From: Effrenium voratum
Lineage: Eukaryota; Sar; Dinophyceae; Suessiales; Symbiodiniaceae
Length of the DNA stretch: 64,000 nt
Direction of reading: 5' to 3'
Assembly (NCBI GenBank): GCA_963377175.1
Contig: CAUJNA010000530.1
Span: 23,501-87,500, forward strand
Shown here one piece after another: positions 12,701 through 57,688 of this stretch. The position numbers and the translations under genes were made by a program. How positions within the stretch are numbered: the first letter of the stretch is position 1; each line of letters starts with the position of its first letter. The notes under the pieces were generated by a model. The model saw only the letters and a program-made list of their open reading frames with translations. It was not told where the DNA came from and did no database searches.

Positions 12701-13629
12701 TCCCTGGAGTCCTCCAAAGAGTACGTCTCGGGGCGCTTGACGAGTGCATGCTCCAACTGTGATTTCAGACTTTGGACCATCTCCTCCTCGTTGAACTTCT
12801 CGATAGATGTAGAAGATTCTATGCCTCTGATCTGTTGCTGATAAACTGATATCTGTTGTGAAGCCTCACGGTGTATCTGATTTGCACGTATAGCTGATTC
12901 CTGCGCGGCCGACTTCTCGCTTGCCATGTAGGATTTCATCAATGCAATCTCCCGCTTCTGCTCCATGATAGTTCCTTCAGCTTGCCTCATCTGTTGCATT
13001 ATAATATTCGACTCCATGTCTTTCTTCTCCCCGTACTGAAATGCGTTCATTTCCACCTTGCGCATCTGTTGGGCTTCTTCCTCAAACTTGCGCCATGCCT
13101 CAGCCATGTGGTGTTGGTGGTGACTCACTAGATGTCCCGACTGCTTGCTGGCAATCTCGCATCGTCTTTCCAGCTCCTGGATCCGGATGGTGCTTCCATA
13201 GTCTTCTTGGTTAAGATTCGCCATTGCTGCCGACATTTCATCAAGTGTCTTCTGATATTCCCCGATCTCCACCTCCATCTTATTCTTCTCTTTGATCACG
13301 GCGCGAAAATCTGCACTGGTGGGTGATTTTGACCTCCCACCCTTCGATGTCGATCTCACGCCCTTCTGCGACGTCCGTGGTGTCGCAGGCGAAGATGATG
13401 ATCTTCTCGGTGGGGATTCTCTTTTCTTCGACTCCTGATGAACATCGATCTGCTTCCATGATCTTGTGGGAGTAGATATGTCGCTGAATAGCGCGGAACC
13501 TCCGCTCCCAGGTTCATCCTGTGAATCTGCAACCATATCCATCACCGCAGGAAGAGCCATCAATCCATTGGATCCCTCTGAGCTGCTGTTCCCAAAAGTT
13601 GCAGTACTTGGGCTCGCCGAAGACGCCAT
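1..13629 (-). CDS. Retrotransposon polyprotein, 4543 codons in window, no stop (3' partial)
   Basis: The start is the ATG at 13629, 98 bp inside the 5' LTR; the reading starts MASSASPSTATFGNSSS. No stop appears in this frame down to base 1, and every landmark motif I placed lies in the same frame. Domains in order: coiled coil (residues 1-500); acidic and arginine-rich linker; Gag core (about 640-855); CCCH fingers (C934-H954, C988-H1006); aspartic protease D1240-T-G; integrase zinc site H1487, H1491, C1498, C1501 and D1530, D1588, E1619; RT D2293 and YVDD 2383-2386; RNase H near D2604, E2649 and D2684; methyltransferase-like C3088; then about 1200 unassigned residues. Copy B implies about 1010 more codons. 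A single Gag-Pol frame is normal for copia; the length and the C-terminal extension are not. Confidence 0.9.
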   Translation of the reverse strand, partial: MASSASPSTATFGNSSSEGSNGLMALPAVMDMVADSQDEPGSGGSALFSDISTPTRSWKQIDVHQESKKRESPPRRSSSSPATPRTSQKGVRSTSKGGRSKSPTSADFRAVIKEKNKMEVEIGEYQKTLDEMSAAMANLNQEDYGSTIRIQELERRCEIASKQSGHLVSHHQHHMAEAWRKFEEEAQQMRKVEMNAFQYGEKKDMESNIIMQQMRQAEGTIMEQKREIALMKSYMASEKSAAQESAIRANQIHREASQQISVYQQQIRGIESSTSIEKFNEEEMVQSLKSQLEHALVKRPETYSLEDSREQLMARLNDVTVFAEQESKRADCLLREKEEIVKQYESDVSMKDQMIAVEGGHRQDAILELAQVKEEKQEERCTMDEKSKEAEYWRLTAKGMYDEYLEEMHELQRQLKEREATLKQEESFVRQLDADNEELRAHKKLETQEASSSKDGHRERAVVKRAEGGTQANSNRIDKKVAGSVPSSSSNQIPNSSLMPGSILFPSFGDPMIDVHLSQMQGVVGHVPQSTTTTGGGDGGGNNGTTPPLDYGGFPPNGNGQGAGRRQLSLAGGGGGPPDDPPDDEDEDDDDEGDEEDEEEEEEEDDRTRRRRRRSRDNREIKNDRPRISRKEAERVSIPAWPKIHQLDTWKMQLLMNVLSACADPDTDAWTKWLEQALGLNPDLDLLSDSGGDRFATIDIKMAMGMQNMLKQAPDEAKDVYLDATRHSELRHQQGVIVKGRELVALVMQSFRTSDRTDLVYHIEHLFNLDFPGDKNLVMFRNKWYDLLLKMRSEDRPSKLALRDILYRKIKGSKKMEFGLNAYHRLPDKHPQKTYEFLLALIDYQIKADREDLMLDMKEKSVKSMMKSGGKDAAPATGKQENQGGKGRKGKPGGPDAAPVLPKAKAKGHAGKNGKSDGASDRGKSPGGSKDNPCWYHFKSAKGCVKGNECTFSHSKKTEHKLESMSKGKGKGKSKSRSSSPKRDDGACFAFQKGKCDRGSACKYRHELIKNNSAPATSNDKAQAKSKAAAKAAAPAIARRAIAMPAIVLKQSAPAGKVSFKKDVDQVEPDEAETVYHEHDDDAMSESSRWSGESEIPEKMVWFKEVLDVDENGEITYLEDERRQWERKGEWYGYEDNENEPYQYVYVDEKKFKSSDHRELSAYQVQRSLIRAKILREVVDDIYKKHYFPVTKESSIMFEYDRNKDEIKESAVDWKKQHGMPKNVFAMSTCISKRVKWLMDTGCGHDLIGRAKAKSLGVDIVKDDDEIVFQTANGSTSTSDVAKIVVDELDETVEPHVLDETPTVLSVGRRCMKMGYAFHWMPGKLPFMVTPKQGFVHLQVKDDIPYLVSDGKLRSNRHRPTIDDLKEHFSEVLAMVTNDEADQGGDDENDVTPAAVGESAEAEGEHHDGAFDFGPPGGAGPVRPPPVAEEIPVDVGSVPHRHGDAEAHEEEADEDDPDAGIEVDVYEGSSIKRKVGVLKKDANSIAHLLTHRYRNPFCESCVKAKMRHFRSRTGAFKREVKTFGDLVTFDFVTASGDHEVEGRYALIIRDIYTGIIMAYPTARRDTDSVVRAIKHFCGRRKIKQVYSDDGPELINACVELKLNHDLSLPGRPQNNSLAERTNQFIIDQTSACLVHAGLPTCYWVQAITTLCHLMNIEEVNGSSAWMRLHGEEFKGEKIPFGALVDFKPSEARGGKREKFEPRGETGIFAGYVLSTGMHWANKYRAWALTAFAGAELNIKKAKVPPRLRMPHQTERMILKSPLTFPIQQKYKVANETLEGIEMSIDAIGLDARDRLIEDEDYEPELLQSDEKRLLDDEVDQIAGLLLDDGPEVIAGDRGDHAGEEDARPSSSKGKGDGHPKGDEKVAKSDLPHVSVGLPGDGITYVNDDGKEVKIDKAGRPYPVGKDGFRLMKTSRPPEFTPEEWKMMSKYYTKEEKAEVKGGGKRKEEDPKSKESDISAPAEARTLQMPGGKRIRAMLRNRWGGVEWQYNWGLRKNISKIKNPMDGKHLAELEWVRIVVNPVDGVVVLMDSKQSQDVMRRNVQLEKEFECLVVIYAWKFKSEERSKSTPNWTKAVASVMESHKDEAETASGTDPSVDESTDLTWYEWEESAEIVSGKVPLAMPAIGEDGEAKKYPSMPCVTSERIQHREKAVKVVRFFDALVSRPVGRKEMLTNPDALASMKKEWSGLIDQGVFDLGAVREYDAVAREAKAKGEEIHMARAHGICVEKHSQLPVGDPKRKFKGRGVLLGNQVKNQSFEAAMFQDLGNSPASFEASRWADFLGCHDGWDVQMADAVQAYIQATLRGTPCWIELPPEAVPSECKWDKYRRPVVPLRKALYGHPDAGTFWEQHCDESVRAVGFEPIGEEWPSVYIHEKLQLVLVVYVDDFKMAGPQKNLAQGWSMLRTRLKIEPETGLDMYLGCNQSKGNVTLGNGHRVTTVTYDMEQFLRSCVDRYLEVAGDVKLNKVVTPELHEETKNHVSRKPAREGPSVVCNWCNNLVPTDGSATVPDQRGGTPELAMKEPVRGHLAPHAASVLMKLLYGARIARFDLLRQVNRLARNVHRWTDSDDRGLHHLMCYVHHTKHWRMVGWVGDPMDDVHLALYADADFAGCIDSLRSTSGGHLNIQGPNTRFPLSGSSKRQGCVSHSTPEAEIVAADVAMRSMGMPALKLVERILKKSPNFVFYDDNKAMIGVVRSGRNPTMRHLERSHGVSISWMHEMFTRDYMYLAYEVTDRMAADIYTKAFNDGRKWKHACLQIGLLDPSLLSDPDTLKALTPTCDPIKGTMQTASGTVDGVPTFPYTHIPIMPPDLWWSGLTSKEGLHEHEGHDPVVVAKGPRLMRVKPPLAVMTPFGSKWLRSTWFLKNGSWLKVEDRVDPGLQCVRIDGWVERAVWQFHPVPVAAPARERSPRPRPIHVGSGDVDMQSVLAAFVEELSNERIELKCVNDLALETLLRLKLLMRCLHINHEQLVPGRCFVPYRIAVKHKPQLAPGIELAMVKHDGGVLRAPVHVSLPGMRTRTVVTLYSVDLARPIVLMACSEPRNWFTALARHDGPQVVTITLVDDLLSEYGGRIARHVLTKPSDLLFFAGPCTGGSSWARLNKTRGIDTAEKIEAKQREFWRLFERFVEIKRHAMTKRAAILFELPGSCDYWKDERLHEVVHDGTSHEFDGCRYGLKQRYAKKPMPIKKPWRVVSWNFELGGSLSKKCNGNHEHGPCAGRETKETQLYTSIIVGVILRRFRARARCLKPAPLKLALACITRRRSRKHQATASEICTTPTAQPRCWVSPEPLVHTGSWVSPEPQASRRSWTSSSPQSEAGIALGQFRGFICSCLFWIFLGLENIIKMTANPNVVNANEFFCVPVGKSRQAAIFLGNLVKNAIEEGKRIPKRMEMSSDLGMCVKWIEDIGVPAIYAYSAYYSAKGRGMMKGEGQSMRVALEFISKVFGQLSADECMLGWREFCSKGKKIVSALNQLCGEATMLAKNPELLNVTKYCMEGADMLRSIANIWDLALGVAEDNDERSFKAAFHQDTPVGEVYKEFISDESSRASSSRRWRSSEEFQTTAEFERHDRRIAKYRDRNWGKVFTLSVIKAPKIDSYGRGSKDDYQKNWDLGLVYQNELQASMKNLAYALRRDENASQNNLLRWMICGSTPSDISDACIGAVNSLMCVSFIMRRLQPLLGEKDSKDQSYTAYFRPDKRELNDLYREIEYARDFLWCIDMIYESKLPAMNINSISLAPHAADRAAENQDRRKWVSWMKEIEKKAEKDVMIEFFQNKYCTIHEIERELEKYPEDFVVGEEPTWWVMGSSKTEPPRKTERQQKSASSSGQRSQTAGGSVPQPGAPSGGSQASDAVKIDNEIIDSIFRMNSGGDDDRWVIINPTAGHDTYTSFEGGTTLGGATVNVKFNIDNNTGYPIIQTVFGPCLAEGKNATYWECMLRCLTSSLLHFEEKTSAEKIILSYVGKGNAAWLQLYAFLCAQTGCLITGRLPGAKAINALIQAEKNPDNAPGQLNRIINRQKRSPIGEATIRDMMIHKKSFLVLDWPLRAVNSKGSTKTFQMMVNEQGWTNIEERSYYGSSEQVSSPNDTLNIISRLQKLDKLIAERRRRDMDDSPMSVHIWMSLYDWVCMRGCGWQVTANPIIDSLQKAISDLVNTCKGLVVVCVNRDVAFHGGRGDLGTIANKVSEICKAAGALVTENDRLWRVVHALTGKNYKIPGSSNLQHFLLKRLLIEKSIDAVAPSNAFVCELEGTCINEPDLRFNIPKNMEESKVKFEYKPTFTAQSKRKQEQQDEGHGEQDAFGKADVGDQRLRWYTVTELSKFICELCAKEMQMSKSKVLGPNSKYNPSSCVNCCANWNADTNGIAMSIEGKKMYTRLFAECVVAIPDLQNLMVDVNNIQAMITIIRELVYSRLKKELSHVGFVSMTVDQAAQFYNNGHGKQLCASRDVIVCKNSEGVEERMSIFLIGKDLGNVAYSSWIKSVLDQGTMYELLGQTTNEESLGDVVEMVLGFFEVMSYFQHELPLWKDAWKIKREFEQSIVRHLAGNVTHT
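3930..4460 (-). other. Methyltransferase-like domain downstream of RNase H (copy A)
   Basis: About 300 residues past RNase H the frame reads LLFFAGPCTGGSSWARLN (Pro-Cys at 4366-4371), then FELPGSCDYW, a YGL...IKKPWRVVSW segment and CNGNHEHGPCAGRET. The order PC, then a Glu-Pro segment, then a C-x3-H-x-H cluster resembles decayed C5-cytosine methyltransferase-like domains carried by some eukaryotic retroelements. I do not see a clear S-adenosylmethionine-binding motif, so the activity is unproven. It could be an unrelated nucleic-acid-binding domain. Confidence 0.4.
5330..7150 (-). other. Reverse transcriptase and RNase H domains of copy A
   Basis: RT landmarks are KRKFKGRGVLLGNQV, the motif A aspartate in QMADAVQAYIQA (D2293), PLRKALYGHPDAGTFWEQH and the catalytic YVDD at 6472-6483. 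RNase H follows with YADADFAG, STPEAEIVAAD, DDNKAMIGVV and NPTMRHLERSHGVSISW, all typical of copia. Between RT and RNase H is an insertion with a CNWC motif. The domains are intact here; the same place in copy B has a nonsense codon. Confidence 0.93.
8560..9180 (-). other. Integrase (DDE) domain of copy A
   Basis: A zinc-binding H-x3-H and C-x2-C pair lies at 9127-9171. The catalytic triad is D at 9040-9042 (TFDFVTA), D at 8866-8868 (YSDDGPEL) and E at 8773-8775 (GRPQNNSLAERTN). The D-to-E spacing is 30 residues, slightly shorter than the usual 35. Integrase inserts the cDNA and creates 5-bp target duplications, matching the GTAAT repeats around copy B. A copia-type region with FAGYV and hydrophobic segments follows before RT. 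Confidence 0.85.
9690..9960 (-). other. Aspartic protease domain of copy A
   Basis: The sequence VKWLMDTGCGHDLIGRAKAK places the catalytic Asp-Thr-Gly at 9904-9912, followed by a hydrophobic flap-like stretch. In copia elements this protease dimerises and cuts the polyprotein. It sits between the CCCH fingers and integrase, as expected. The region is absent from copy B. Confidence 0.8.
10612..13629 (-). other. Gag region of copy A: coiled coil, Gag core, CCCH nucleocapsid
   Basis: The first 500 residues are rich in Glu, Lys and Gln with heptad-like spacing, consistent with a long coiled coil. A low-complexity acidic run (11830-11890) and an RRRRR patch precede a helical Gag core starting near 11700 (LDTWKMQLLMNVLSACADPD). 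The nucleocapsid part has two fingers, C-x9-C-x5-C-x3-H (10768-10830) and C-x7-C-x5-C-x3-H (10612-10668). These are CCCH type rather than the CCHC knuckle usual in LTR elements. The likely roles are particle assembly and RNA binding. Confidence 0.75.
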
Positions 13630-13711
13630 TGTACTGTGTAGGTTATCGTTCCTTTATTGTCCCTGTACCCGCAATAAACCAGCTGTCTCCCAGTCCAGTG
13701 TAGAGCTTGTA

Positions 13712-13727
13712 GTTACGGCTGATAACC
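13712..13727 (-). promoter_or_regulatory. Primer-binding site of copy A
   Basis: The 16 bases next to the LTR read GGTTATCAGCCGTAAC in the element sense. The complement, GTTACGGCTGATAACC, contains CTGATAA, which fits the anticodon loop of tRNA-Ile with the primer 3' end near tRNA position 40. This is the half-tRNA mode known for Drosophila copia. The same site lies at 55424-55439 (one mismatch) and 25848-25863. Confidence 0.6.
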
Positions 13728-14076
13728 TGTCAAGAGACGGCAAGGTGACGTCCCGTGGGACGCTATGCACCGAACCCTCAAGCTGTAATACCAACCACGT
13801 AGAAAGGTGTATACGGACGATGCCGTTATAGCCGAACCCGTGTAAACGTTGTAAGGGAGAAGGAATGATAGTTACAACAGTAGTCCTGACAAATGCAGCG
13901 CAAGCGAAGTGTTTTCGCTCTCAATGCCGATCACGTATGTATGCAGTCACACATCAGATCTTGAACCTCAATTGTGTCTTGAGCCAAATGGCGATCAATG
14001 GAACTTGGGAAGCAACACCAACAAGGACCTCAGAACAGCTACCCAATTTCGGCACGGGGCCTAGAGGGTTTTAACA
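13728..14076 (-). repeat. 5' LTR of copy A (349 bp)
   Basis: It starts TGTCAAGAGACGG on the plus strand and ends GGTTTTAACA, so the termini are TG...CA. It aligns along its length with the 350-bp LTRs at 41857-42206 and 55440-55789, with more differences than those two show between themselves. It should hold the promoter and polyadenylation signals. Confidence 0.93.
13978..13997 (-). promoter_or_regulatory. Spliced-leader-like sequence in LTR, copy A
   Basis: In the element sense the LTR reads GATCGCCATTTGGCTCAAG. The dinoflagellate spliced leader ends TAGCCATTTTGGCTCAAG, so the two agree over GCCATTTGGCTCAAG apart from one missing T. No GT donor follows, so this is not an SL RNA gene. It lies about 80 bp into the LTR, near where the transcript might begin. 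Confidence 0.5.
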
Positions 14077-40500: not shown

Positions 40501-41856
40501 GTCTCCCTGGCGGGTTTCTCTCTATGGACACCTCAAAAATTGTCCTTAAAGCTCAAATATGCCTTTTGGACATTGCGAGTGTCAACATGCTCTGGTTCGT
40601 AGGTTGTACTTGCTAGGCTTCATTCATTTCTTTAGCTGACAAGCAGTTCGCCCTCAAATGTGGGTTCAAATGGTGCTGTGATATTGGCAGGTGTATGTGC
40701 GTGCTGGGGTACCTAATGATACTCTCGTGGAATGCAAGGATTCAAATGAGGTTGCAGTTACATCCAACTGTTTCTCTGTGTGAGCTTCACTACACCAGCA
40801 GCACCAAGGTGTCACAAAACATTGTAAACAGCCTCAGTTGCCCTACGGCTGATTTGAGCCAACAGCGAGGACCTTCCGCAAATGCCCGCGACAAGTTGAA
40901 TGGGCCCTTGCCTACGGATTCTTTTTCATTTGACCCTACACACCCCTTACGTACATGGCACGAAAAGAAAAGGGTATCAGCAAGAGCCAGGGGCAAGGGT
41001 GAACGCAAGCAGCACACTCGAAAGCGGCCGATGTGCTCAGTCTACCAGACCCCTTCGACCAACTAGCCAGAGGTACTCATACACTTAATATTGCCTTGGA
41101 ATATCTTCCCGTGCCTCCCAAGCATACCGCCTGAGATGCAACCCGGCAAAACGGCCTATTCTAGATGGATTCTGCAGGGACCCCCCAGTCATAATGGGAC
41201 CAGCCGCTTCCCGCCCAGTCCTGCGGAATGGTTGGCCAGCACCACCGCTGGCAGCTCCTGGGAAGATGGGAAGAACCCGAGACAGGGCAGGGCTAGAAGG
41301 CTTTTCGGCTCTGGCCAGGTGGGTGTTTCCTAAACAGGATTTGGGTCTGCAATCTGCAAAGGTACCTGCTTGGGGTTGTTGTCGAGGAAACCCATTTGGT
41401 GCTTACCGCCGTGTGTTGCCCCTTCAAAATTACCTGCAAAGGGAGATCTTATGAGAGTCTGGTGAAGCAAATGGCATCCCTTTGTGTTGAATCCAGATCA
41501 CAGCTTTCAGAAAAAAGAAAAACAAGTTACGCTCGGTGTTTACACTTGCTCCCCCTGTCCCAGTGAGCCTTCCGCCTCCCCCCTGTTCAGCTCGCCTGGT
41601 TCTGGAGCAAGGCGTTGGGCAAGTGCTGCAGGCGGTTTAGGTCGAGCATGTTCACCTTGTCCTGGATACAAGTATTCGCTCACTCAACTGGCCACCCAGA
41701 AGCACGACTCATAGCCCTACTGCAGAAGCTGTGGGTTTTAGCCCCTCTTGAACTTTGCCGCGAAGGTGAACTTGAACATGCTGCATGCTACACCCATGAA
41801 AACTGCAACCTCACTTGCAGCGGCGAACAAAAGTAGTCTCTGGGTGCAAGGGTAAT
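37501..41856. other. Intergenic, possible exon pieces
   Basis: No recognised gene. Minus-strand 38870-38690 is open and acidic (ARVDLDFEDERPREYLAAAR) after a TAG acceptor-like site. A second coding-like stretch, in another frame, lies at 39110-38960 (SPELWQTLADDAAAPTFSIR). They may be exons of one unknown gene. 39800-41856 shows nothing. Confidence 0.3.
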
Positions 41857-42206
41857 TGTCAAGAGACGGCAAGGTGACGTCCCGTCAGACGCTGTACACC
41901 GAACCCTCCAGCTGTAATACCAACCACGTAGAAAGGTGTATACGGTCAAACCGTTATAGCCGAACCCGTGTAAACGTTGTAAGGGAGAAGGAATAATAGT
42001 TACAACAGTGGTCCTGACAAATGCAGCGCAGGCGAAGTGTTTTCCGCTCTCAATTGCCGATCACGTATGAACGCAGCTACACATAAGATCTTGAACCTCA
42101 ATCGTGTCTTGAGCCAAATGGCGATCAATGGAACCTGGTAAGCAACACAAACACGGACCTCAGAACTGCTTCCCAATTTGGGCACGGGGCCAGGAGGGTT
42201 TTAACA
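41857..42206 (-). repeat. 3' LTR of copy B (350 bp)
   Basis: Same termini and length as the 5' LTR. The spliced-leader-like sequence lies at 42108-42127. Confidence 0.96.
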
Positions 42207-42216
42207 TCCCCCATTT
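42207..42216 (-). promoter_or_regulatory. Polypurine tract of copy B
   Basis: The sense strand reads AAATGGGGGA directly before the 3' LTR, the expected plus-strand primer for cDNA synthesis. Confidence 0.7.
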
Positions 42217-42835: not shown

Positions 42836-45622
42836 TCACGCGTACCTGTCCCCAATGGACAGTCGGTGAGTGCGTCGACGGAACTCTTCGTCCAAATTCT
42901 TTTGGGCTTCTCGCGCCCGGACACACTTCTTGTTATGATCCTCTGGTATCCAATGCCCTTTTCGGAGGCACCAATCCAGCAGAGGTGTATCGCATTTATT
43001 CGGATCGATGGCCGCAATAATGGCGCTCACATTGACCGAATAACCATGTTTGCCAAGGTTCAGGCCATCCCTCACGAATGATATATACTTACAGTTGAAA
43101 GCCAGCGAAAAGCATCTGTAAATAATATCACCCACCGGGCGCACGCGGTCCTTGACCAGGAGCTTCATTTCGTCCTCGGTGACGTCGAGGATTCTCGCTG
43201 CAATCCACAGCTTGTAGAATGTGTATAATCCCTCGCACTTGCACACCATCATACGAATGTAATCTTCACGCTCCTCAGCCGACCGGAAGACCCTTGTCCG
43301 AACATTCTCGGATTGAGAAATCTTCAGTACCGTTGATGGTAAAAGGATCCCTTCCTGATCGTGCTCAGTCATGTTGGGGTACCTCTTGAAGTCGTTGTGG
43401 TAAGGGCAGCCCGGCCTCCCCTCGAGTCCGGCATTCAACGTTCTCTCCTCACCACCTTCGAACATCCCCCACATCTTTGACATCTGCAGTGCGATGAATC
43501 CCGCCATGTATTGAGCCTCGCGCGGCTCATCAAGGCAAATCGCCATCCGCTGGGAATTTATGATATGCCGTGATGTCAAATCAGTGTCGCGGTACTGCCA
43601 ACCGCCATCTTCCTCTTCAGACACGTAGCCGGATGTATACCCTTGCGTGTCCATGTCGTCATCTTCAGGAACTTCCTCCGCCTCGTCATCATCCTCCTGT
43701 GCTGCCGCATCATGGTTGGCTTCTTCTTGTGCGCGCCTGGCATCACCCGAGACATTGGGCTTTTGATTGTCCTCATCGTCGTCGGAATTGATGTGGATGT
43801 AGAACCTCCCGGTGGAGATCAGTTGCGCTCCACATTCCAGGCATAAGCAGAAGCATGTGGGGATTGCGGTCGCACATGACGGACATATCCGGCACCTCAG
43901 TCCTTCCCATGTCTCGTCATTCAGGATGACGACTTTGCTGACCTCGTCCCTGACCTCGTTGGTCTGCGCATCGAACTCCTCCATCTTGTTGTCCCGGTAA
44001 AGTTCGCATGCACGATCGACCATGTCTTTGATGTAGTGCAGATTATCGGCACCTGCCTCGGTCTCAGGCATCCTCTCGTTGATCTTTGCGACGTTCTGGA
44101 GGAACATCGCAGCCGACTCTTGGGATGAGTTGACGAAACCAGGACAGATCTCGTTCTCCACACATTTCGAGTACGCTCTCTTGATGTCGCCGTACTCCAG
44201 GCGTTTCCCTCCGTTGCTTTTGCCAATCCAAATGGACTTGACCTCATAGAACGGGATCACGTCAAAGGCCATGAATGTCCCATTTGCCGCGACTCCAGCT
44301 CCATACCGCGCGAGGGTTGCACTGGGAATGTAGATGATCGCAATCGGATCCCCCGTCCTTACGTTTTGTAGCGTCACCTTTGTCGCTACGTTCATCTCAT
44401 CCCATGGAGCAAATGCTCCGAAGTGCAGTGCTAGCCTGTTTCCGCCATCGATTCCGCCGGGGACTAGCCCACAGCGTACGATGCTTGGCAGGTTTTCCAC
44501 ATACGTCACATGGAATGCTCCTCCGAGAGAATCACCCATCCTTGCGGAATACCTATTTGCCAGTGCGGATGAGCTCATGAATCCAAAATCACTGTGACCA
44601 GTTGTGACTCGGATGCACCAAGGCCTGTACCATCCATCGCATCTGTTGAACATCCTGTCGATGTCATCCCGATCCAGGCCAGCCTTGGTCATCTCCTCCC
44701 TGGCCGCCCTCGTGTCATTCGGGTTCATGATGCTTGGAAACCTTGCTGCCAGGACCTGAAATCTCGATTTCTTATGTCCGGACTCCTGCCACTTGATCAC
44801 TTCCATGATGCCCATGTATCGTTTTGCTCTCGAGGTTGTAGGTGGGAATATGTCGTTGTTCCGGTCGTCAATGACTGCATCAATGTCGACCCATCCACCT
44901 TCGTCGCATCTGAAAACACTTCCTCGGCAATTGCCGATTTTGTGCCGAAGGACTCTGCATAGGTTGTGAGATAGCTGGTTTGCTTGATCTTTCGTAGCAA
45001 ATACCGAGCGATCATCGCCAATCCTGCATAGTGGAGCACCGTCAAAAGGAGCAACGCAGAAATTGACGCTCTTGCCAAGCTGCATCACATCCACCTGCTC
45101 AAGGTTGGCACCTTTGGGAAAGTAACTGGGGTCAACACTAGACGCATACGCCCACGGCATATGCACGTTACTCACGTCGCCATACTTCGGGATGTAGCAT
45201 GGAATGGTGTCACATCCTCGCTCTAGCGTCGTCTTGAACGTTCTGTTGTCCCCGCACGGATTGTGGGTGAGGTCCACGCCACCGCATTGTAGCTCTCCTC
45301 CCTCAGCCGTGTCAGCCATCTCCACCAGATTGATGGTATAGCTATACATTTCAATTGTTTCTTTCCCTGCTTGTCCTCCTCTCTTGCGTTCCTTGGACGT
45401 TGATGAGGACGGCTCTTCCGTATCCCCCATTTCTTCATCCGAGGAAACAGGATCACTGCTGAGTAGTTCACGGATCTTCTTCATCGCCTTCTCATTCCCA
45501 GCAGCCTCCTCATAGTCCTTGCAGTCGCCGTCGTGGGCCAGGTTCGCGCACCTCATACAAATTCCCATCTCTCCCATGCACTTCTCCATTGATTCCAGGA
45601 ATCCGAGTGCCGCGCCCATCAA
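42836..45622 (-). CDS. Distal C-terminal extension with Tpt1/KptA RNA 2'-phosphotransferase domain, copy B
   Basis: 928 codons, the end of the polyprotein or a separate overlapping ORF. Residues about 215-470 (44980-44213) form a Tpt1/KptA fold: LSHNLCRVLRHKIGN, EGGWVDIDAVI, SRFQVL, CIRVTTGHS, AFHVTYVENLPSIVRCGLVP, then NRLALHFGAFAPWDE. The four catalytic positions of Tpt1 are all present: R226, H227, R338 and R396. Known Tpt1 enzymes transfer an RNA 2'-phosphate to NAD+, for example at tRNA splice junctions. An N-terminal CMRCANLAHDGDC cluster, a Cys-rich finger (C577-C597) and an acidic linker flank it. The coding part continues through LSIGDRYA to the stop. The frame relation to the previous ORF is unresolved. 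Confidence 0.82.
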   Translation of the reverse strand: MMGAALGFLESMEKCMGEMGICMRCANLAHDGDCKDYEEAAGNEKAMKKIRELLSSDPVSSDEEMGDTEEPSSSTSKERKRGGQAGKETIEMYSYTINLVEMADTAEGGELQCGGVDLTHNPCGDNRTFKTTLERGCDTIPCYIPKYGDVSNVHMPWAYASSVDPSYFPKGANLEQVDVMQLGKSVNFCVAPFDGAPLCRIGDDRSVFATKDQANQLSHNLCRVLRHKIGNCRGSVFRCDEGGWVDIDAVIDDRNNDIFPPTTSRAKRYMGIMEVIKWQESGHKKSRFQVLAARFPSIMNPNDTRAAREEMTKAGLDRDDIDRMFNRCDGWYRPWCIRVTTGHSDFGFMSSSALANRYSARMGDSLGGAFHVTYVENLPSIVRCGLVPGGIDGGNRLALHFGAFAPWDEMNVATKVTLQNVRTGDPIAIIYIPSATLARYGAGVAANGTFMAFDVIPFYEVKSIWIGKSNGGKRLEYGDIKRAYSKCVENEICPGFVNSSQESAAMFLQNVAKINERMPETEAGADNLHYIKDMVDRACELYRDNKMEEFDAQTNEVRDEVSKVVILNDETWEGLRCRICPSCATAIPTCFCLCLECGAQLISTGRFYIHINSDDDEDNQKPNVSGDARRAQEEANHDAAAQEDDDEAEEVPEDDDMDTQGYTSGYVSEEEDGGWQYRDTDLTSRHIINSQRMAICLDEPREAQYMAGFIALQMSKMWGMFEGGEERTLNAGLEGRPGCPYHNDFKRYPNMTEHDQEGILLPSTVLKISQSENVRTRVFRSAEEREDYIRMMVCKCEGLYTFYKLWIAARILDVTEDEMKLLVKDRVRPVGDIIYRCFSLAFNCKYISFVRDGLNLGKHGYSVNVSAIIAAIDPNKCDTPLLDWCLRKGHWIPEDHNKKCVRAREAQKNLDEEFRRRTHRLSIGDRYA

Positions 45623-48578
45623 TCACTCGCTGCTTCTTTTCTTCTTTCTCAGCGTTGGGCTGAGAGCTTCGGCTCGGGTCTGGTGCTTGACCAAGACCGT
45701 CGCCTTTGCCCTCCGTTGCCTTTTTCTTGGATCCTTGGGTGGCGGGCTCGGTCATCAGGGATCGCGGATGTCTGGGCTTGATCTTGTTCATGATGTCCAG
45801 CACTTCTTTCGTGGGCGCCCCGAGTTGGGCGGAAGGCTTATTCCGCTTTCGGTTCTGGCCCGTCGTGTGGCTCACGTTCCCGGCGAGGCGTCGTACGATT
45901 GACTGCTCGAACTCCCTCTTGATCTTCCACACATCCTTCCACAGCGGGAGTTCGTGCTGAAAGTACGACATCACCTCAAAGAACCCCAATATCATCTCGA
46001 CGACGTCCCCCAAGGATTCCTCATTCGAAGTCTGTCCCAGGAGGTCATACATCGTCCCCTGATCGAGCACGCTCTTGATCCAGGATGAATAGGCCACGTT
46101 GCCAAGATCCTTGTCTATCATGAAGATGGAGGTCCTCTCCTCAACTCCCTCGGAGTTCTTGCACGTGATCACATCCCGGGATGCACACAATTGCTTCCCG
46201 TGACCGTTGTTGTAGAACTGCGCTGCTTGATCCATTGTCATGCTCACGAAACCCACGTGGGATAGCTCCTTCTTCAGCTTGGAATATGCGAGTTCCCGAA
46301 TAATCGTGGTCATGGCCTGAACATTGTTGACGTCCACCATGAGGTTTTGAAGATCAGGGATTGCTACCACGCATTCCGCGAAAAGTCGCGTATACAGCTT
46401 CCTCCCCTCAGTTGATCTCACAATACCGTTCGTGTCCGCATTCCAGTTCGCGCAACAGTTCACGCAAGAAGTGGGATTGAATTTCGAGTTTGATCCGAGC
46501 ACCTTAGACTTGTTCACCTGCATCTCTCTCACACAAAGTTCGCAGATCAAACCACTGAGCTCGGTGACCGAATACCATCGAAGACGTTGATCACTGACAT
46601 CGGTGTTCCCAAACGCATCTTGTCCGCCGTGCCCTTCGTCTTGCCGTTCTTGTTTCCGCTTTGATTGAGCAGTGAAGGTCGGCTTGTACTCAAATTTCAC
46701 CTTCGATTCCTCCATGTTCTTCGGGACATTGAAGCGAAGGTCGGGCTCGTTTATGCATGTCTCCTCCAGCTCTCGCACGAACGCGTTGCTTGGTGCGACC
46801 ACATCGATGGATTTCTCCACCAACAATCGCTTCAGGAGGAAATGGTGCAGATTCGAGCTCCCAGGGATCTTGTAGTTCTTACCTGTGAGCGCGTGGGCAA
46901 CGCGCCACAGGCGATCATTCTCGGTCACCAACGCGCCTGCCGCCTTGCAGATCTCGCTCACCTTGTTGGCGATCGTCCCCAAGTCCCCTCTTCCTCCATG
47001 GAAAGCTACATCGCGATTCACGCACACCACGACCAGGCCCTTGCACGTGTTGACGAGGTCGGATATCGCCTTTTGCAAGGAGTCAATGATGGGGTTGGCG
47101 GTCACCTGCCACCCACACCCTCTCATGCACACCCAATCATAGAGCGACATCCAAATGTGCACCGACACAGGTGAGTCATCCATGTCTCGCCTCCGTCGTT
47201 CGATGATGAGCTTTTCCAATTTCTGTAAACGGGAGATAATACTCATTGTGTCATTGGGCAAGGAGACTTGCTCACTCGACCCATAGTACGATCTCTCTTC
47301 GATATTTGTCCACCCCTGTTCGTTGACCATCATCTGCAAGGTCTTCGTGCTCCCTTTCGCATTGACAGCCCTCAGGGGCCAATCCAGGACCAAGAAGCTC
47401 TTCTTCTGAATCATCATGTCGCAAATTGTTGCCTCACCAATGGGGCCCCTTTTCAGTCCCTTGATCATCCGGATCAATCGTCCAGGCGCGTTGTCTGGGT
47501 TCTTCTCTGCCTGGATCAACGCGTTGATGGCTTTGGCGCCCGGAAGGCGTCCAGTAATCAAGCATCCTGTTTGGGCACACATGAAAGCGTACAGCTGAAG
47601 CCATGCCGCATTCCCCTTTCCAACATAGGAAAGAATAATCTTCTCCGCGCTGGTCTTCTCCTCGAAATGCAACAGCGAAGAAGTCAGGCATCTCAGCATA
47701 CACTCCCAATAGGTCGCGTTCTTACCTTCTGCGAGACACGGCCCAAATACAGTCTGTATAATTGGGTACCCTGTGTTGGTGTCTATGTTGAACTTCACAT
47801 TGACAGTCGCGCCGCTCAGAGTAATACCCCCTTCGAATGAGGTGTATGTGTCGAGCCCAGCAGTTGGGCTGATGATTGTCCATCTGTCATCATCACCGCC
47901 GGAGTTCATGCGGAATATGGAGTCGATGATCTCGTTGTCGATCTTGACGGCATCGCTAGCATACGACCCCCCACTTGAAGCTCCCTGCTGGGGGACTGGC
48001 CCACCAGAGGTTTGACTCCTTTGCCCGGAGCTCGACGCAGACTTCTGCTGTCGCTCCGTCCTCCGCGGCGGTTCAGTCTTCGATGAGCCCATCACCCACC
48101 ACGTCGGCTCCTCTCCGATCGCGAAGTCCTCGGGGTACCTCTCCAGTTCCCTCTCGACTTCGTGAATGGTGCAGTAGTTGTTCTGGTAGAAGTCGATCAT
48201 GACATCCTTCTCGGCTTTCTTTTCGATCTCCTTCAGCCAGCTTACCCACTTGCGCCGATCTTGGTTCTCAGCGGCCCTGTCAGCCGCGTGTGGTGCCAAA
48301 CTGATGGAGTTGATGTTCATCGCAGGCAGCTTTGATTCGTAGATCATGTCGATGCACCACAGGAAGTTCCTGGCGAACTCGACCTCTCGATAGAGTTCTT
48401 TTAGCTCATTCTTGTCCTGACGGAAATAAGCTGTGTACGACTGATCCCTAGCATGCCTTTCACCGAGCAATGGCTGCAACCTCCTCATGATGAAGGAAAC
48501 GCACATGAGCGAGTTGATTGCCCCGATGCACGCGTCAGAGATATCACTGGGGGTTGACCCACAGATCATCCAGCGCAA
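45510..48578 (-). pseudogene. Central C-terminal extension, copy B, function unknown
   Basis: 1022 codons aligning with copy A 1-2700 at high identity. Segments include TGYPIIQTVFGPCLAEGKN, then SYVGKGNAAWLQLYAFMCAQ, HIWMSLYDWVCMRGCGWQV, VVVCVNRDVAFHGGRGDLG and a paired-cysteine cluster (ICELC ... CVNCC). Upstream (48579-48950) is damaged: copy A has about 230 extra bases there, and copy B has an inserted TAG-containing stretch near 48715. The last 35 or so codons (RGTRIPGINGEVHGRDGNL) look out of frame; the real continuation is probably the next ORF. Confidence 0.7.
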
Positions 48579-48949
48579 AAGATTGTGCTGGTTAGCTTCT
48601 TCATCTCTTCTCAGTGCATATGCGAGGTTCTTCCTCGATGCTCGCAGCTCATTCTGGTAGATCAGCCCAAGGTCCCAATTCTTCTGGTAGTCGTCCTTTG
48701 CGCCACGACCGTAGACTTAGAAGTCGAGCTTGGGGGGCTTGGCCACGCTCAACGTGAATACTTTCCCCCAGTTTCGATCTCTGAATTTCCCGATCGTGCC
48801 TTTCAAACTCTGCAGTTGTCACCACCTTCTCGACGATGAGGTTCTATCTGTGATGGATCTCAGCATATCTGCCCCTTCTATGCAGTACTTGGTGACGTTG
48901 AGCAGCTCAGGGTTCTTCGCTAGGAGTGATGCCTCACCGCAAAGTTGGT

Positions 48950-51268
48950 TCAGCGCCGCCACGATCTTCTACAGAATTCCCTCCAGCCAAGCATGCATTC
49001 GTCGGCAGAAAGTTGTCCGAAAACTTTGCTGGTAAATTCTAATGCAACCCTCATGGATTGCCCTTCTCCTTTCATCATTCCGCGGCACTTGGCAGAGTAA
49101 TACGCTGAGTAGGCGTAGATAGCGGGGACGCCAATGTCCTCGATCCACTTTATGCACATGCCCAGGTCGCTGCCCATTTCCATTCTCTTGGGGATTCTTT
49201 TTCCCTCCTCGATGGCGTTCTTCACGAGGTTCCCCAAGAATATTGCCGCTTGCCTGGATTTCCCAACAGGCACGCAGAAGAACTCACTCGTATTGACGAC
49301 GGTCGCATTGGCAGTCATCTTGATGATATTCTCCAGACCCGGGAAAACCCAAAATAAGCAGCTGCGAATAAAGCCACGGAATAGTCCCAATACGAGCCCA
49401 GCTTCTGATCGAGGTGAGGGACTGGCCCTACTCCTCGTCGAAACTTGAGGTTCGGGACTAGCCCAGCTCCCCGTTGAAACCAGAGGTTCGGGACTAGCCC
49501 AGCTCCTCAGTGGTACAGTCGGGGTGGTGCGAATTTCACACGCAGTAGCTTGATGCTTCCGCGATCTCCCTCGCGTAGTGCAAGCAAGAGCGAGTTTCAA
49601 TGGTGCCGGCTGGAGGCACTGTGCTCGAGCACGAAAACGGTGGAGGATCACACCCACAATTAACGACGTGTACAACTGGGTTTCTTTGGTTTCCCGACCG
49701 GCACAAGGTCCATGCTCATGGTTTCCATTACATTTCTTAGACAACGAGCTGCCAAGGTCAAAATTCCATGAAACAACTCTCCATGGTTTCTTGATTGGCA
49801 TGGGTTTCTTAGCATATCTTTGCTTCAAGCCATAGCGACGCCCATCAAACTCATGACTAATGCCATCATGAACAACCTCATGCAGTCTCTCGTCCTTCCA
49901 ATAATCGCAACTTCCAGGCAACTCAAACAAAATCGCAGCTCGTTTCGTCATGGCATGCCGTTTGATTTCAACGAACCGTTCAAACAATCTCCAAAATTTC
50001 CTCTGTTTGGCCTCGATTTTCTCTGCGGTGTCAATTCCGCGAGTCTTGTTGAGGCGTGCCCATGATGATCCCCCCGTGCAAGGCCCGGCGAAGAACAACA
50101 AATCGGAAGGTTTAGTCAGTACATGTCTGGCGATTCTCCCCCCGTACTCGCTCAGTAAGTCATCGACCAAAGTTATGGTGACGACCTGCGGCCCGTTATG
50201 GCGGGCAAGGGCAGTGAACCAGTTACGCGGTTCGGAACATGCCATCAGCACAATGGGCCGAGCCAAGTCAACACTGTATAAAGTGACGACTGTGCGAGTT
50301 CTCATACCAGGAAGCGAGACATGCACAGGAGCGCGAAGCACACCACCGTCATGTTTAACCATCGCGAGCTCAATACCCGGCGCTAACTGTGGTTTGTGCT
50401 TCACCGCAATGCGATACGGAACAAAACAACGACCAGGGACAAGTTGCTCGTGATTGATATGCAGACAACGCATAAGCAGCTTCAACCGGAGCAAAGTTTC
50501 CAAAGCAAGGTCGTTGACACATTTTAATTCAATGCGCTCGTTCGACAGTTCTTCAACGAATGCGGCCAGCACGGACTGCATGTCAACATCCCCGGACCCG
50601 ACGTGAATTGGTCGTGGTCGTGGAGATCGCTCCCGCGCCGGTACAGCAACCGGTACGGGATGAAACTGCCAAACTGCGCGTTCAACCCATCCATCAATCC
50701 GCTCACACTGCAACCCAGGGTCAACCCTATCCTCGACCTTGAGCCATGACCCGTTCCTCAGAAACCAAGTGGAACGAAGCCACTTGCTCCCGAATGGTGT
50801 CACAACCGCGAGTGGAGGTTTCACACGCATCAATCTGGGTCCCTTGGCAACGACAACCGGATCATGTCCTTCATGTTCATGCAATCCCTCTTTGGACGTC
50901 AATCCGGACCACCATAGATCCGGGGGCATGATCGGAATGTGTGTGTACGGAAATGTGGGAACTCCGTCAACCGTTCCCGAAGCAGTCTGCATGGTCCCTT
51001 TTATGGGATCACACGGGTGTGAGCGCCTTGAGGGTATCCGGGTCAGACAGCAAGCTCGGGTCAAGTAGACCAATCTGCAAACATGCATGTTTCCACTTGC
51101 GTCCATCATCGAACGCCTTGGTGTAGATGTCAGCCGCCATTCTGTCGGTGACCTCATACGCCAAATACATGTAATCACGTGTGAACATCTCATGCATCCA
51201 CGAAATGCTAACACCATGGCTTCTCTCAAGGTGGCGCATCGTGGGGTTTCTCCCTGATCGCACGACAC
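48950..51268 (-). pseudogene. Start of C-terminal extension with methyltransferase-like segment, copy B
   Basis: The first roughly 85 codons overlap RNase H out of frame and are not real. From about 51010 (CDPIKGTMQTASGTVDGV) it matches the copy A frame. It has FAGPCTGGSSW, FELPGSCDYW and CNGNHEHGPCAGRETKE, then two WASPEP repeats (49454-49465, 49490-49501), then SEFFCVPVGKSRQAAIFLG. A 10-bp deletion near 48970 shifts it out of frame. Confidence 0.75.
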
Positions 51269-52136
51269 CGATCATAGCCTTGTTATCGTCATAGAACACA
51301 AAGTTCGGTGACTTCTTGAGAATCCGCTCTAACAACTTTAGAGCAGGCATACCCATCGTTCTCATGGCAACATCGGCCGCAACTATTTCGGCCTCGGGGG
51401 TTGAGTGACTGACACAACCTTGTCTTTTTGAGCTGCCCGACAACGGGAACCGGGTATTAGGCCCTTGTATATTCAAGTGTCCACCAGAGGTGGAACGTAG
51501 CGAGTCGACGCATCCTGCAAAGTCAGCGTCCGCATACAAGGCCAAGTGCACATCATCCATGGAGTCTCCGACCCAACCGACCATGCGCCAATGTTTAGTA
51601 TGATGTACATAGCACATCAAACGATGCAAACCCCGATCATCGGAGTCAGTCCACCTGTGCACATTCCGTGCTAGGCGATTCACTTGCCGCAACAAATCGA
51701 AGCGAGCAATCCGCGCACCGTACAGCAACTTCATTAGTACGCTAGCGGCATGCGGAGCAAGGTGTCCACGCACGGGCTCCTTCATGGCCAACTCAGGAGT
51801 CCCTCCCCGCTGGTCCGGCACTGTGGCAGAACCGTCGGTGGGCACAAGATTGTTACACCAATTGCACACGACTGACGGCCCCTCTTTGGCAGGCTTCCGT
51901 GAGACGTGATTCTTTGTTTCTTCATGCAACTCAGGAGTCACAACCTTATTCAATTTTACATCGCCCGCCACCTCAAGATAGCGGTCGACACAGGAACGTA
52001 GGAACTGTTCCATGTCATAGGTCACCGTTGTTACGCGGTGTCCGTTCCCGAGAGTGACGTTTCCCTTGCTCTGATTACAACCAAGGTACATGTCAAGTCC
52101 AGTCTCGGGCTCAATCTTCAAACGTGTACGCAACAT
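51009..52136 (-). pseudogene. RNase H, copy B
   Basis: Same frame as the RT piece, after the nonsense codon. It carries YADADFAG, STPEAEIVAADVAMRTMGM, DDNKAMIGVV and the NPTMRHLERSHG stretch. It ends at ...KALTPV because GT is missing relative to copy A (CACGGGTG for CACGTGGGTG), which shifts the frame just before the extension. Confidence 0.9.
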
Positions 52137-52145
52137 GCTCCATCC

Positions 52146-53813
52146 CTATGCAAGGTTCTTTTGCGGTCCTGCCATTTTGAAGTCGTCGACATACACAACC
52201 AGAACAAGCTGGAGCTTTTCATGAATGTACACTGAAGGCCATTCTTCACCGATGGGTTCAAAACCAACGGCGCGCACCGATTCACCACAGTGCTGCTCCC
52301 AGAATGTCCCCGCATCTGGGTGTCCGTACAGCGCCTTCCTCAACGGGACGACTGGTCTTCTGTGCTTACCCCATTTGCATTCACTCGGCACAGCCTCCGG
52401 TGGCAATTCAATCCAACACGGCGTGCCTCTCAAGGTGGCCTGGATGTACGCTTGAACAGCGTCGGCCATCTGCACATCCCAACCATCATGACAACCCAAA
52501 AAATCCGCCCAACGCGAGGCCTCAAACGAAGCAGGAGAGTTCCCCAAATCTTGAAACATCGCAGCTTCAAAGCTTTGATTCTTCACTTGGTTCCCCAGCA
52601 ACACGCCTCTACCCTTGAACTTCCTTTTAGGATCACCAACAGGCAACTGTGAGTGCTTTTCAACGCAAATGCCATGTGCGCGAGCCATGTGTATCTCTTC
52701 TCCTTTCGCTTTCGCCTCCTTGGCCACAGCGTCATATTCACGCACTGCGCCAAGATCGAAGACGCCCTGGTCGATTAATCCCGACCATTCTTTCTTCATC
52801 GATGCCAACGCATCAGGGTTGGTCAGCATTTCTTTCCGGCCAACCGGCCTGGACACTAAAGCGTCGAAGAATCGTACAACTTTCACGGCTTTCTCTCTGT
52901 GCTGTATTCGCTCAGACGTCACGCACGGCATCGATGGGTATTTCTTGGCTTCACCGTTTTCACCTATTGCAGGCATCGCGAGTGGCACTTTTCCAGAAAC
53001 AACCTCAGCAGACTCCTCCCATTCATACCAGGTAAAATCCGTCGATTCGTCGATCGTTGGATCTGTCCCCGATGTCGTCTCAGCTTCGTCTTTCTGACGC
53101 TCCATGACTGATGCAACTGCCTTCGTCCAATTTGGAGTCGACTTTGATCGCTCCTCTGATTTGAACTTCCAGGCGTAAATTACTACCAGACACTCAAATT
53201 CTTTCTCAAGCTGAACGTTTCGTCTCAAGACGTCTTGGGATTGCTTGGAATCCATGAGAACAACCACTCCGTCAGCAGGATTTACAACAATCCTGACCCA
53301 ATCAAGTTCAGCCAAGTGTTTCCCATCCATTGGGTTCTTGATCTTTGATATGTTCTTCCGCAATCCCCAATTGTACTGCCATTCAACTCCACCCCAGCGG
53401 TTTCGAAGCATCGCTCGAATTCTCTTACCACCGGGCATCTGCGATGTCTGTGCCTCTGCCGGCGCAGAAATCTCGGGTTCCTTACTCTTGGGATCGTCTT
53501 TCTTCTTCTTACCACCACCCTTCACCTCGGCCTTTTCTTCCTCGGTGTAGTACTTTCTCATCATTGCCCATTCATCGGGAGTGTACTCTGGTGGTCTCGT
53601 CGTCTTCATTAGCCTGAATCCATCTTTCCCGACAGGATATGGTCTCCCGGCCTTATCGATCTTCACCTCCTTACCATCATCGTTGACGTACGTGATGCCA
53701 TCCCCAGGTAGCCCAGCTGACACATGTGGAAGGTCGGGCTTCTTAACTTCTCCATCGCCCTTGGCATGTCCGGACATGCCCAACAACCCCTTGCATCTGG
53801 GATAGGTGTACAT
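52146..53813 (-). pseudogene. Pol N-part and reverse transcriptase, copy B
   Basis: 555 codons. The first residues span the join of the 4-kb deletion (GLLGMSGHAKGDGEV). It retains the pre-RT spacer and RT with KRKFKGRGVLLGNQV, D in QMADAVQAYIQA and YVDD. It stops at 52146-52148, where copy A has CAA (Gln) and copy B has TAG in the same frame. Readthrough would restore RT-RNase H continuity. Confidence 0.9.
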
Positions 53814-53869
53814 CGATCATTGGATCACCAAAAGACGGAAAGAGAATCGAACCTGGCATTAGTGACGAA

Positions 53870-54655
53870 TTAGGGGTCAGATTCGATGATGATGACAGTC
53901 ACCCTCTTGTCTACCCTAGTCGAATTAGCTTGGGGTCCTCCCTCAGCGCGTTTCACTACTGCTCGTTCACGATGTCCATCTTTACTGCTAGAGGCTTCCT
54001 GTGTCTCCAGCTTCTTGAGCGCACGTAGTTCCTCGTTGTCAGCATCAAGTTGACGAACAAAACTCTCTTCTTGCTTGAGTGTCGCCTCCCTTTCCTTCAG
54101 TTGTCCCTGAAGCTCATGCATCTCCTCGAGGTACTCATCATACACTCCCTTAGCTGTCAATCTCCAGTACTCGGCCTCCTTCGACTTCTCGTCCATCGTG
54201 CACCGTTCTTCTTGTTTTGCTTCTTTGACCTGGGCTAACTCCAAGATCGCATCTTGACGATGACCACCCTCGATAGCAATCATCTGGTCCTTCATCGACA
54301 CGTCGGATTCATACTGTTTGACGATCTCTTCCTTCTCACGAAGTAAGCAATCTGCTCTCTTCGATTCTTGTTCCGCGAATATTGTAACGTCGTTCAGTCT
54401 CGCCATCAGCTGTTCCCTGGAGTCCTCCATAGAGTACGTCTCGGGGCGTTTGACGAGTGCGTGCTCCAACTGTGATTTTAGGCTTTGGACCATCTCCTCC
54501 TCGTTGAACTTCTCGATAGATGTAGACGATTCGATGCCTCTGATCTGTTGCTGATAAACTGATATTTGTTGCGAAGCTTCACGGTGTATCTGATTTGCAT
54601 GTATAGCTGATTCCTGCGCGGCCGACTTCTCGCTTGCCATGTAGGATTTCATCAC
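53870..54655 (-). pseudogene. Gag coiled-coil continuation, copy B
   Basis: Continues the coiled coil in the shifted frame for 261 codons (MASEKSAAQESAIHANQIHR). It stops early because about 14-17 bases present in copy A near 12160-12190 are missing here. The Gag core and CCCH fingers are absent from copy B. Confidence 0.85.
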
Positions 54656-55341
54656 GCAATCTCCCGCTTCTGCTCCATAATAGTTCCTTCAGCTTGTCTC
54701 ATCTGTTGCATTATAACATTCGACTCCATGTCTTTCTTTTCCCCGTACTGATATGCGTTCATTTCCACCTTGCGCATCTGTTGGGCTTCCTCCTCAAACT
54801 TGCGCCATGCCTCAGCCATGTGGTGTTGGTGGTGACTCACTAGATGTCCCGACTGCTTGCTGGCAATCTCGCATCGTCTTTCCAGCTCCTGGATCCGGAT
54901 AGTGCTCCCATAGTCTTCTTGATGAAGATTCGCCATCGCTGCCGACATTTCATCAAGTGTCTTTTGATATTCCCCGATCTCCATCTCCATCTTGTTCTTT
55001 TCCTTAATCGCGGCGCGAAACTCAGCACTGGTGGGTGATTTTGACCTCCCACCTTTTGATGTTGACCTCACGCCCTTCTGCGACGTCCGTGGTGTCGCAG
55101 GCGAAGATGACGATCTTCTCGGCGGGGATTCTCTTTGCTTCGACTCCTGATGAACATCGATCTGCTTCCATGATCTTGTGGGAGTGGATATGTCGCTGAA
55201 TAGCGCGGATCCTCCGCTCCCAGGTTCATCCTGTGAATCTGCGATCATATCCATCACCGCAGGAAGAGCCATCAATCCATTGGATCCCTCTGAGCTGCTG
55301 TTCCCAAAAGTTGCAGTACTTGGGCTCGCTGAAGATGCCAT
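54652..55341 (-). pseudogene. Gag N-terminal part, copy B
   Basis: Starts at the ATG equivalent to that of copy A (MASSASPSTATFGNSSS) and carries the coiled-coil N-terminus for 229 codons. It ends at a frameshift near 54655: copy A has CATCAATGCAATC where copy B has CATCACGCAATC, a one-base loss plus a substitution. Confidence 0.85.
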
Positions 55342-55423: not shown

Positions 55424-55439
55424 GATACGGCTGATAACC
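55424..55439 (-). promoter_or_regulatory. Primer-binding site of copy B
   Basis: GGTTATCAGCCGTATC in the sense strand, directly after the LTR; one base differs from copy A and the small element. Confidence 0.6.
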
Positions 55440-55789
55440 TGTCAAGAGACGGCAAGGTGACGTCCCGTGGGACGCTGTCCACCGAACCCTCCAGCTGTAA
55501 TACCAACCACGTAGAAAGGTGTATACGGTCAAACCGTTATAGCCGAACCCGTGTAAATGTTGTAAGGGAGAAGGAATAATAGTTACAACAGTGGTCCTGA
55601 CAAATGCAGCGCAGGCGAAGTGTTTTCCGCTCTCAATTGCCGATCACGTATGAACGCAGCTACACATAAGATCTTGAACCTCAATCGTGTCTTGAGCCAA
55701 ATGGCGATCAATGGAACCTGGTAAGCAACACAAACACGGACCTCAGAACTGCTTCCCAATTTGGGCACGGGGCCAGGAGGGTTTTAACA
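55440..55789 (-). repeat. 5' LTR of copy B (350 bp)
   Basis: TG...CA termini. Nearly identical to 41857-42206; the differences I see are GG/CA, C/A and T/C. The spliced-leader-like sequence lies at 55691-55710. Confidence 0.96.
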
Positions 55790-55794
55790 GTAAT

Positions 55795-57245: not shown

Positions 57246-57276
<31 letters not shown>

Positions 57277-57556: not shown

Positions 57557-57587
<31 letters not shown>

Positions 57588-57657: not shown

Positions 57658-57688
<31 letters not shown>

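Follow-up and report, generated by a model that had tools for sequence, protein, structure and literature searches.

Why would a long terminal repeat (LTR) retrotransposon encode an RNA 2'-phosphotransferase? The question is raised by a 64,000-nucleotide stretch of the dinoflagellate Effrenium voratum genome (C530:23501-87500, hereafter the window), in which an open reading frame (ORF) with a domain of the Tpt1/KptA family lies between the LTRs of a Ty1/copia-type element, here called copy B. Tpt1 enzymes react an RNA 2'-phosphate with NAD+ and release 2'-OH RNA (PMC6333775). We find that the domain belongs to the element polyprotein and that it recurs between the LTRs of other copies in the genome (1.156 Gb in 3,699 contigs).

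The Tpt1 domain is part of the element polyprotein

Copy B is bounded by two LTRs of 350 bp, each of the form TG..CA, on the minus strand (3' LTR, 41857..42206; 5' LTR, 55440..55789). The pair differs at 4 positions (Kimura two-parameter (K2P) distance, 0.0115) and carries the target-site duplication GTAAT on both outer flanks (41852..41856 and 55790..55794). All described coding parts are found on the minus strand. The Tpt1 domain (aa 212-467, 256 codons; 44222..44989) lies in a 928-aa ORF that starts with TTG (42836..45622), with residues R226 and H227 of the LRH motif at 44942..44947, R338 of IRVTTGHS at 44609..44611 and R396 of NRLALHFG at 44435..44437. Because the same residues run on upstream unbroken in copy A, a neighbouring element, and in protein P0020, the 928-aa ORF represents only part of a longer frame, and the break between it and the preceding ORF is specific to copy B relative to both.

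Copy A is found on the same contig (C530:19487-37576, 18.1 kb). Its LTRs are identical across 349 bp and it has its own duplication, ATAAT. The 5' part of this element occupies positions 1..14076 of the window on the minus strand, with the 5' LTR at 13728-14076 and an open frame (1-13653) that runs beyond the window; the Tpt1 part lies in L009/L011 and is 92% identical to the Tpt1 region of copy B. No internal stop interrupts copy A along either of two overlapping stretches (L012:3-8153; L011:1062-9998), which by arithmetic form one frame of about 5,560 codons (C530:20462-37153). Along this frame the Pfam matches follow the order CCCH fingers (19.7 bits, cut-off 29), aspartic protease (aa 1241-1289; 21.7 bits, under the cut-off of 24.3), integrase (aa 1550-1620; 19.1 bits, under the cut-off of 32.6), RVT_2 (aa 2248-2436; 35.4 bits, above the cut-off of 31.6) and PF01885 (31.2 bits, above the cut-off of 26). 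Because the RVT_2 and PF01885 matches both lie in this single open frame, Tpt1 is part of the element polyprotein. RVT_2, the 5-bp duplication and the TG..CA LTRs are shared with Ty1/copia LTR retrotransposons, and the order of the sub-cut-off protease and integrase matches before reverse transcriptase (RT) would fit them as well; copy A differs from these in its length of about 18 kb, its single giant frame and its long 3' extension with Tpt1.

Identity of the domain

The 928-aa ORF matches PF01885 over aa 214-426 (E 1.4e-7; 32.2 bits, above the cut-off of 26). The Tpt1/KptA family is defined by an Arg-His-Arg-Arg tetrad (PMC6333775), and R226, H227, R338 and R396 align with its columns in 24 rows of cellular TPT1s. 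Of these rows, 21 read RHRR, one RRRR and one RHKR, and one further row lacks the first two positions. A profile-profile comparison of element-type proteins (21 rows, of which the program kept 15) with 43 cellular TPT1s gave a probability of 97.1 and E 4.9e-11, values that apply to that comparison only. A structure model built with cellular TPT1s in its alignment matches Tpt1 structures and is predicted to contain both the RNA lobe and the NAD+ lobe. Searches of the Protein Data Bank (PDB) found no Tpt1, either by phmmer with the window domain alone or with an element-type profile. A profile designated A4 does find Tpt1 there, and is not counted as evidence because it includes cellular TPT1s. 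The NCBIfam KptA equivalog model, whose cut-off is 239, gives no more than 14.3 bits. On sequence, the window domain is therefore a divergent relative rather than an ordinary KptA. The NAD+-contacting HGT position reads HVT in the class I and class II rows that cover it (class I being the family of copies A and B), HAT in P0031 and a gap in P0019. A chance run of motifs is ruled out by the PF01885 match, the profile-profile comparison and the invariant catalytic columns.

The element domain thus shares with Tpt1/KptA/TRPT1 (PF01885) the tetrad, the KxRF and GHS motifs, the order of elements and the fold, the model of which is partly led by the cellular rows. It differs in being only about 20% identical, in being longer between the lobes, in having HVT for HGT, and in lying within a retrotransposon polyprotein with a zinc-ribbon-like motif behind it. 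No match was found in the phage records searched.

These results agree closely with a preliminary description of the window made from its sequence. The four catalytic residues that it named are exactly those on the tetrad columns, and the domain lies, as it stated, between the LTRs of copy B in the same orientation as Pol, with RVT_2 upstream on the same strand. The PF01885 search and the structural comparison that it proposed both gave Tpt1 matches, the latter with the model that includes cellular TPT1s, and the domain that it suggested looking for between the LTRs of further copies is present there, so that neither of the two outcomes that it named as refuting was obtained. Two observations go beyond it: copy A encodes the domain and gag-pol in a single frame, and other kinds of retroelement in the same genome carry Tpt1.

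Copies in the genome and selection on the domain

A genome search with 400 residues around the domain gave 2,093 first-look candidates, from which the best 104 protein matches were scored. All 104 match, at 94-100% identity, and 103 contain no stop inside the region; open frames extend up to 5,562 aa. LTRs were sought at the predicted places in four of the scored copies. Copies C867, C3334 and C557 have both LTRs, in pairs that are 99.4% identical, with the exact duplications GATAC, CGTTC and GATGA, respectively, and C3432 has the 3' LTR only in the slices read. Both LTRs and a 5-bp duplication are therefore present in five of the six copies examined (A, B, C867, C3334 and C557), every site being different. 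A host-gene insertion private to copy B is ruled out, since the domain also lies between the LTRs of the other four. One protein hit of this family, P0026 from E. voratum, is 84% identical over 40% of the query.

Constraint on the domain was estimated as the ratio of nonsynonymous to synonymous substitutions (dN/dS; pairwise Nei-Gojobori) in 22 copies, namely A, B and 20 picked across the 104 scored. Over the 256 codons, summed dN/summed dS is 0.11 at a mean dS of 0.17, and single pairs range from 0 to 0.59 (227 of 231 pairs, those with dS >0.02); the pairs are mutually non-independent, and picking the 20 copies from the best protein matches biases the sample to low dN. The A-B pair, which lies outside this selection of best matches, gives 0.099 for the Tpt1 ORF, 0.08 for the RT ORF and 0.04 for the RNase H ORF, the two intervening ORFs reaching 0.10 and 0.115. 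The R226/H227/R338/R396 tetrad is identical in 22/22 copies, and no catalytic column varies among those class I, II and IIb rows in which it is covered. Selection thus appears to have kept the Tpt1 active site intact in the element family, which suggests that these elements may need RNA repair for copying themselves. The preliminary description suggested a possible benefit of the domain to the element; the dN/dS of about 0.11 and the invariant tetrad strengthen this suggestion.

Related Tpt1 carriers

A search from P0030 recovered 29 proteins of a second class, the query among them; the domains that were aligned share 23-32% identity with that of the window. In P0051, colinearity with copy A extends for about 1,300 aa (E 9e-57). 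P0042 (1,621 aa) combines RVT_2 in one protein with the Tpt1 domain, which BLAST and a local profile recognise. A midpoint-rooted FastTree tree of 60 domains unites classes I and II with the incomplete P0031 in a single clade (support 1.0), separate from cellular TPT1s. Because they share this clade, the simplest reading would be a single old Tpt1 acquisition within copia-type elements.

A genome search for Tpt1 gave 558 candidates; 150 were scored, 150/150 were above the cut-off, and few were read in detail. One copy of a third copia-type class (class III; L013, C2756:421001-431000) has an RVT_2/RNase H ORF (RVT_2 20.3 bits, below the cut-off) followed by a 1,113-aa ORF with Tpt1 (63.8 bits). 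It shares with class I a PCTGG domain (31%, E 7e-19) and the position of the zinc ribbon, and its placement in the tree is uncertain. The zinc-ribbon-like motif behind Tpt1 is found in everything scanned for it: copy A, three class II proteins and the class III copy.

A LINE-like kind (long interspersed nuclear element; L019, L021 and L022) contains an ORF with an OTU-like region, recognised by eye, and a Tpt1 domain that reaches 158 bits in L022. At C458 (L019/L021), the one locus read downstream, an open frame with RVT_1 (58 bits) starts less than 400 bp past the end of this ORF. The LINE-like Tpt1 has RHRR in 8/8 copies, with a dN/dS of 0.035 over six, the motif used having missed the other two. 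In the tree these domains fall outside the class I/II clade and near cellular TPT1s, with weak support (0.51). A multi-copy ORF combining a helicase-like region with Tpt1 is also present (L016, L023, L028 and L029; AAA_30 17.6 bits in L016, under the cut-off), in which HGT is replaced by HCT; of its four rows two cover the tetrad, and both read RHRR.

Possible function of the element Tpt1

The reading that we put forward, and to which we would give an even chance as a whole, is that the Tpt1 domain is a built-in, selectively maintained polyprotein part of a large Ty1/copia-type family, most likely clearing 2'-phosphates from element RNA for the RT. The analysis shows the homology, the position between LTRs in five copies, the frame shared with gag-pol in copy A, the conserved tetrad and the low dN/dS; the other components differ in strength. 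The domain is probably active as an enzyme, and its substrate is presumably RNA; that the benefit falls at the reverse-transcription step is plausible at slightly less than even odds. The domain would act as an NAD+-dependent RNA 2'-phosphotransferase on element RNA, where 2'-phosphates could arise at junctions after re-ligation of cleaved RNA or in a damaged template or primer. Such groups would hinder reverse transcription, and once they were cleared the RT could copy the full transcript of about 18 kb. Because Tpt1 and the RT come from one polyprotein, they would likely be packaged together, and Tpt1 would be well placed to clear blocks on template or primer.

Several observations weigh against this reading, besides the sampling bias described above. 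The structure model built from element-type proteins only reached a predicted local distance difference test (pLDDT) score of 40 and was not used in fold searches, and in HVT the H and T of HGT are retained with the G substituted. The tetrad of the class III copy, one copy having been read, is degenerate (RGKR), and its Tpt1 is possibly inactive or altered. At least 40 of the 150 scored rows share the class III frame length (1,114 aa), so that many related elements may dispense with the canonical site. Pfam recognised no RNA ligase, kinase or 2H domain in the polyprotein. Finally, a candidate host TPT1-like gene (L001), whose named relatives include Durusdinium and Symbiodinium, could act in trans for the element.

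Other functions have to be considered for a domain of this kind. ADP-ribosylation of RNA is reported for TRPT1/Tpt1 enzymes (PMC9458441, PMC6582358), and the element domain could be a nucleic-acid ADP-ribosyltransferase that adds an ADP-ribose cap to the phosphorylated ends of the element's RNA or cDNA, protecting or hiding them without removing any 2'-phosphate. The NAD-lobe histidine H371 is retained in 22/22 copies, as such an enzyme would have it, but a need for all four tetrad residues would not be obvious in a pure capping enzyme, and we consider this function unlikely. Similarly doubtful is a role in counter-defence, in which host metal-independent ribonucleases attack element RNA and Tpt1 reverses the damage or blunts signalling from the damaged ends. 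A precedent could be seen in KptA from phages and from the polyproteins of some positive-strand RNA viruses, which has been interpreted as RNA repair (PMC9503650, PMC11316551). However, the element contains no partner repair enzyme that Pfam recognises, and counter-defence overlaps chemically with the clearing of 2'-phosphates.

The domain could also have been retained without catalysis, its winged-helix RNA lobe binding nucleic acid like an extra nucleocapsid part. The zinc-ribbon-like motif that accompanies Tpt1 in all of the class I, II and III sequences scanned is compatible with such a module, as is the persistence of the domain in the class III copy despite its degraded tetrad; the invariance of the catalytic columns in classes I, II and IIb argues against it, and we regard it as improbable. 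A functionless passenger, persisting since a host TPT1 cDNA was captured once, would fit the description of dinoflagellates as a special retrogene lineage (PMC6050394), but is disfavoured because of the constraint on the domain, and we hold it to be very improbable: a dN/dS of about 0.11 has been maintained at a mean dS of 0.17, 103 of the 104 scored copies (best matches only) are stop-free across the 400-aa region, and the domain is common to classes that are 23-32% identical and form one clade.

Other parts of copy B and of the window

From its 5' LTR, copy B consists of a coiled-coil-like ORF, an RVT_2 ORF, an RNase H region, two long ORFs without a Pfam match and the Tpt1 ORF. The coiled-coil-like ORF (53870..54688) is gag-like by position, has no Pfam match and has a counterpart in copy A. 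At the junction 53771..53772 copy B lacks about 4 kb of copy A; by arithmetic from the Pfam positions in copy A, the missing stretch holds the CCCH, protease and integrase matches. The ORF with the Ty1/copia-type RT (52146..53816) matches RVT_2 at 29.1 bits, just below the cut-off of 31.6, and the RNase H region (51009..52145) is recognised by a DAD motif by eye, with no Pfam RNase H match. The ORF directly before the Tpt1 ORF (45510..48716) is one of the two without a Pfam match; in both copy A and P0020 its counterpart shares a frame with Tpt1. Behind the Tpt1 domain, the Cys4 zinc-ribbon-like motif (43832..43894) was scanned in copy A and transferred to copy B by alignment. The short purine tract GGGGGA (42207..42212), a candidate polypurine tract, adjoins the 3' LTR and is identical in copy A. 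All of these lie on the minus strand.

The ORF that follows RNase H (48950..51271, minus strand) contains the PCTGG-type domain, with the motif FFAGPCTGGSSWAR and no Pfam match; its class III counterpart reads SLPCTGGCPW (31%, E 7e-19). The motif may bear a faint resemblance to the PC motifs of C5-methyltransferases. DNA_methylase (PF00145) has no Pfam match in the scanned ORFs of copies A and B.

The 14 nt that adjoin the 5' LTR of copy B on its inner side (55426..55439, minus strand), GGTTATCAGCCGTA, are a candidate primer-binding site and are identical in the five class I copies read. The same 14 nt are found on the minus strand at 13714-13727 and 25850-25863, and also in L015 and L060-L063. 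The sequence adjoins the 5' LTR in class I copies and elsewhere stands behind quite different sequences, which are presumably LTR ends. The genome contains the pattern GC-N-TACGGCTGATAACC 343 times and its reversed form 0 times. The site is probably one primer-binding site common to several LTR families. We take it to resemble the complement of a tRNA anticodon arm, as in copia half-tRNA priming, although tests for the tRNA gene failed. A T-arm pattern search for such a gene gave two hits, with one in the reversed control, and ARAGORN calls no tRNA at either locus. A search for a contiguous stem-loop gave 0 hits, and one for an intron form gave five, with one in the control; in all five shown, the complement of the site itself runs on into unrelated sequence. 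As to self-priming, copy B contains no complement with at least 11/14 matches. The use of a half-tRNA primer by copia is described in PMC5371799.

The window holds further repeats. Another retroelement fragment (60079-62793, minus strand) has a weak RVT_1 match (19.7 bits, under the cut-off of 29.6), and the adjoining frame (59183-60142) is tyrosine-recombinase-like by eye, with no Pfam match. At 23416-26158, a pair of 266-bp direct repeats, with starts 2,477 bp apart, encloses a copia RNase-H-like fragment (24934-25848, minus strand; by eye, no Pfam match) and is perhaps a short non-autonomous LTR element. Long simple-repeat arrays with 8-bp spacing and open frames on both strands (~14950-16160 and 57070-58110) are ordinary low complexity.

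Known systems and significance

A search of the open PMC literature, with subscription papers and preprints outside its scope, found no report of Tpt1 in a retrotransposon in the text it covered. A parallel is found in Symbiodinium, probably of the same algal group, in which LINE and DIRS elements carry DNA methyltransferases (DNMTs; SymbioLINE-Dnmt and SymbioDIRS-Dnmt3) and Copia elements lack the DNMT domain (PMC5890265). Those elements, like the Tpt1 family, have taken up a nucleic-acid enzyme domain and kept its key residues; they differ in the enzyme and in the element types concerned, and the main text of that paper has 0 mentions of phosphotransferase, Tpt1 and PTS_2. A few positive-strand RNA viruses, likewise RNA-based replicators, also have a KptA/Tpt1 domain embedded in their polyproteins (PMC9503650, PMC11316551). 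These viruses do not reverse transcribe, whereas the Tpt1 family described here is an LTR retrotransposon with many genomic copies; the word "retrotransposon" has 0 mentions in the main text of PMC9503650.

Tpt1 is essential for fungal tRNA splicing, while its deletion in E. coli or mouse has had no reported consequence and the part it plays in these two is not evident (PMC6333775). A selfish element with a Tpt1 of its own under selection offers a direct route to asking which RNA 2'-phosphates matter. We tentatively propose that at least two unrelated retrotransposon types in one alga, copia-type LTR and LINE-like, have each recruited Tpt1, and that NAD+-dependent RNA repair, as the clearing of 2'-phosphates before or during reverse transcription, could be part of their life cycle. 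Damage to the template RNA, or its re-ligation, may limit the reverse transcription of very long elements, and an RNA-repair enzyme may be recruitable by retrotransposons and not by RNA viruses alone.

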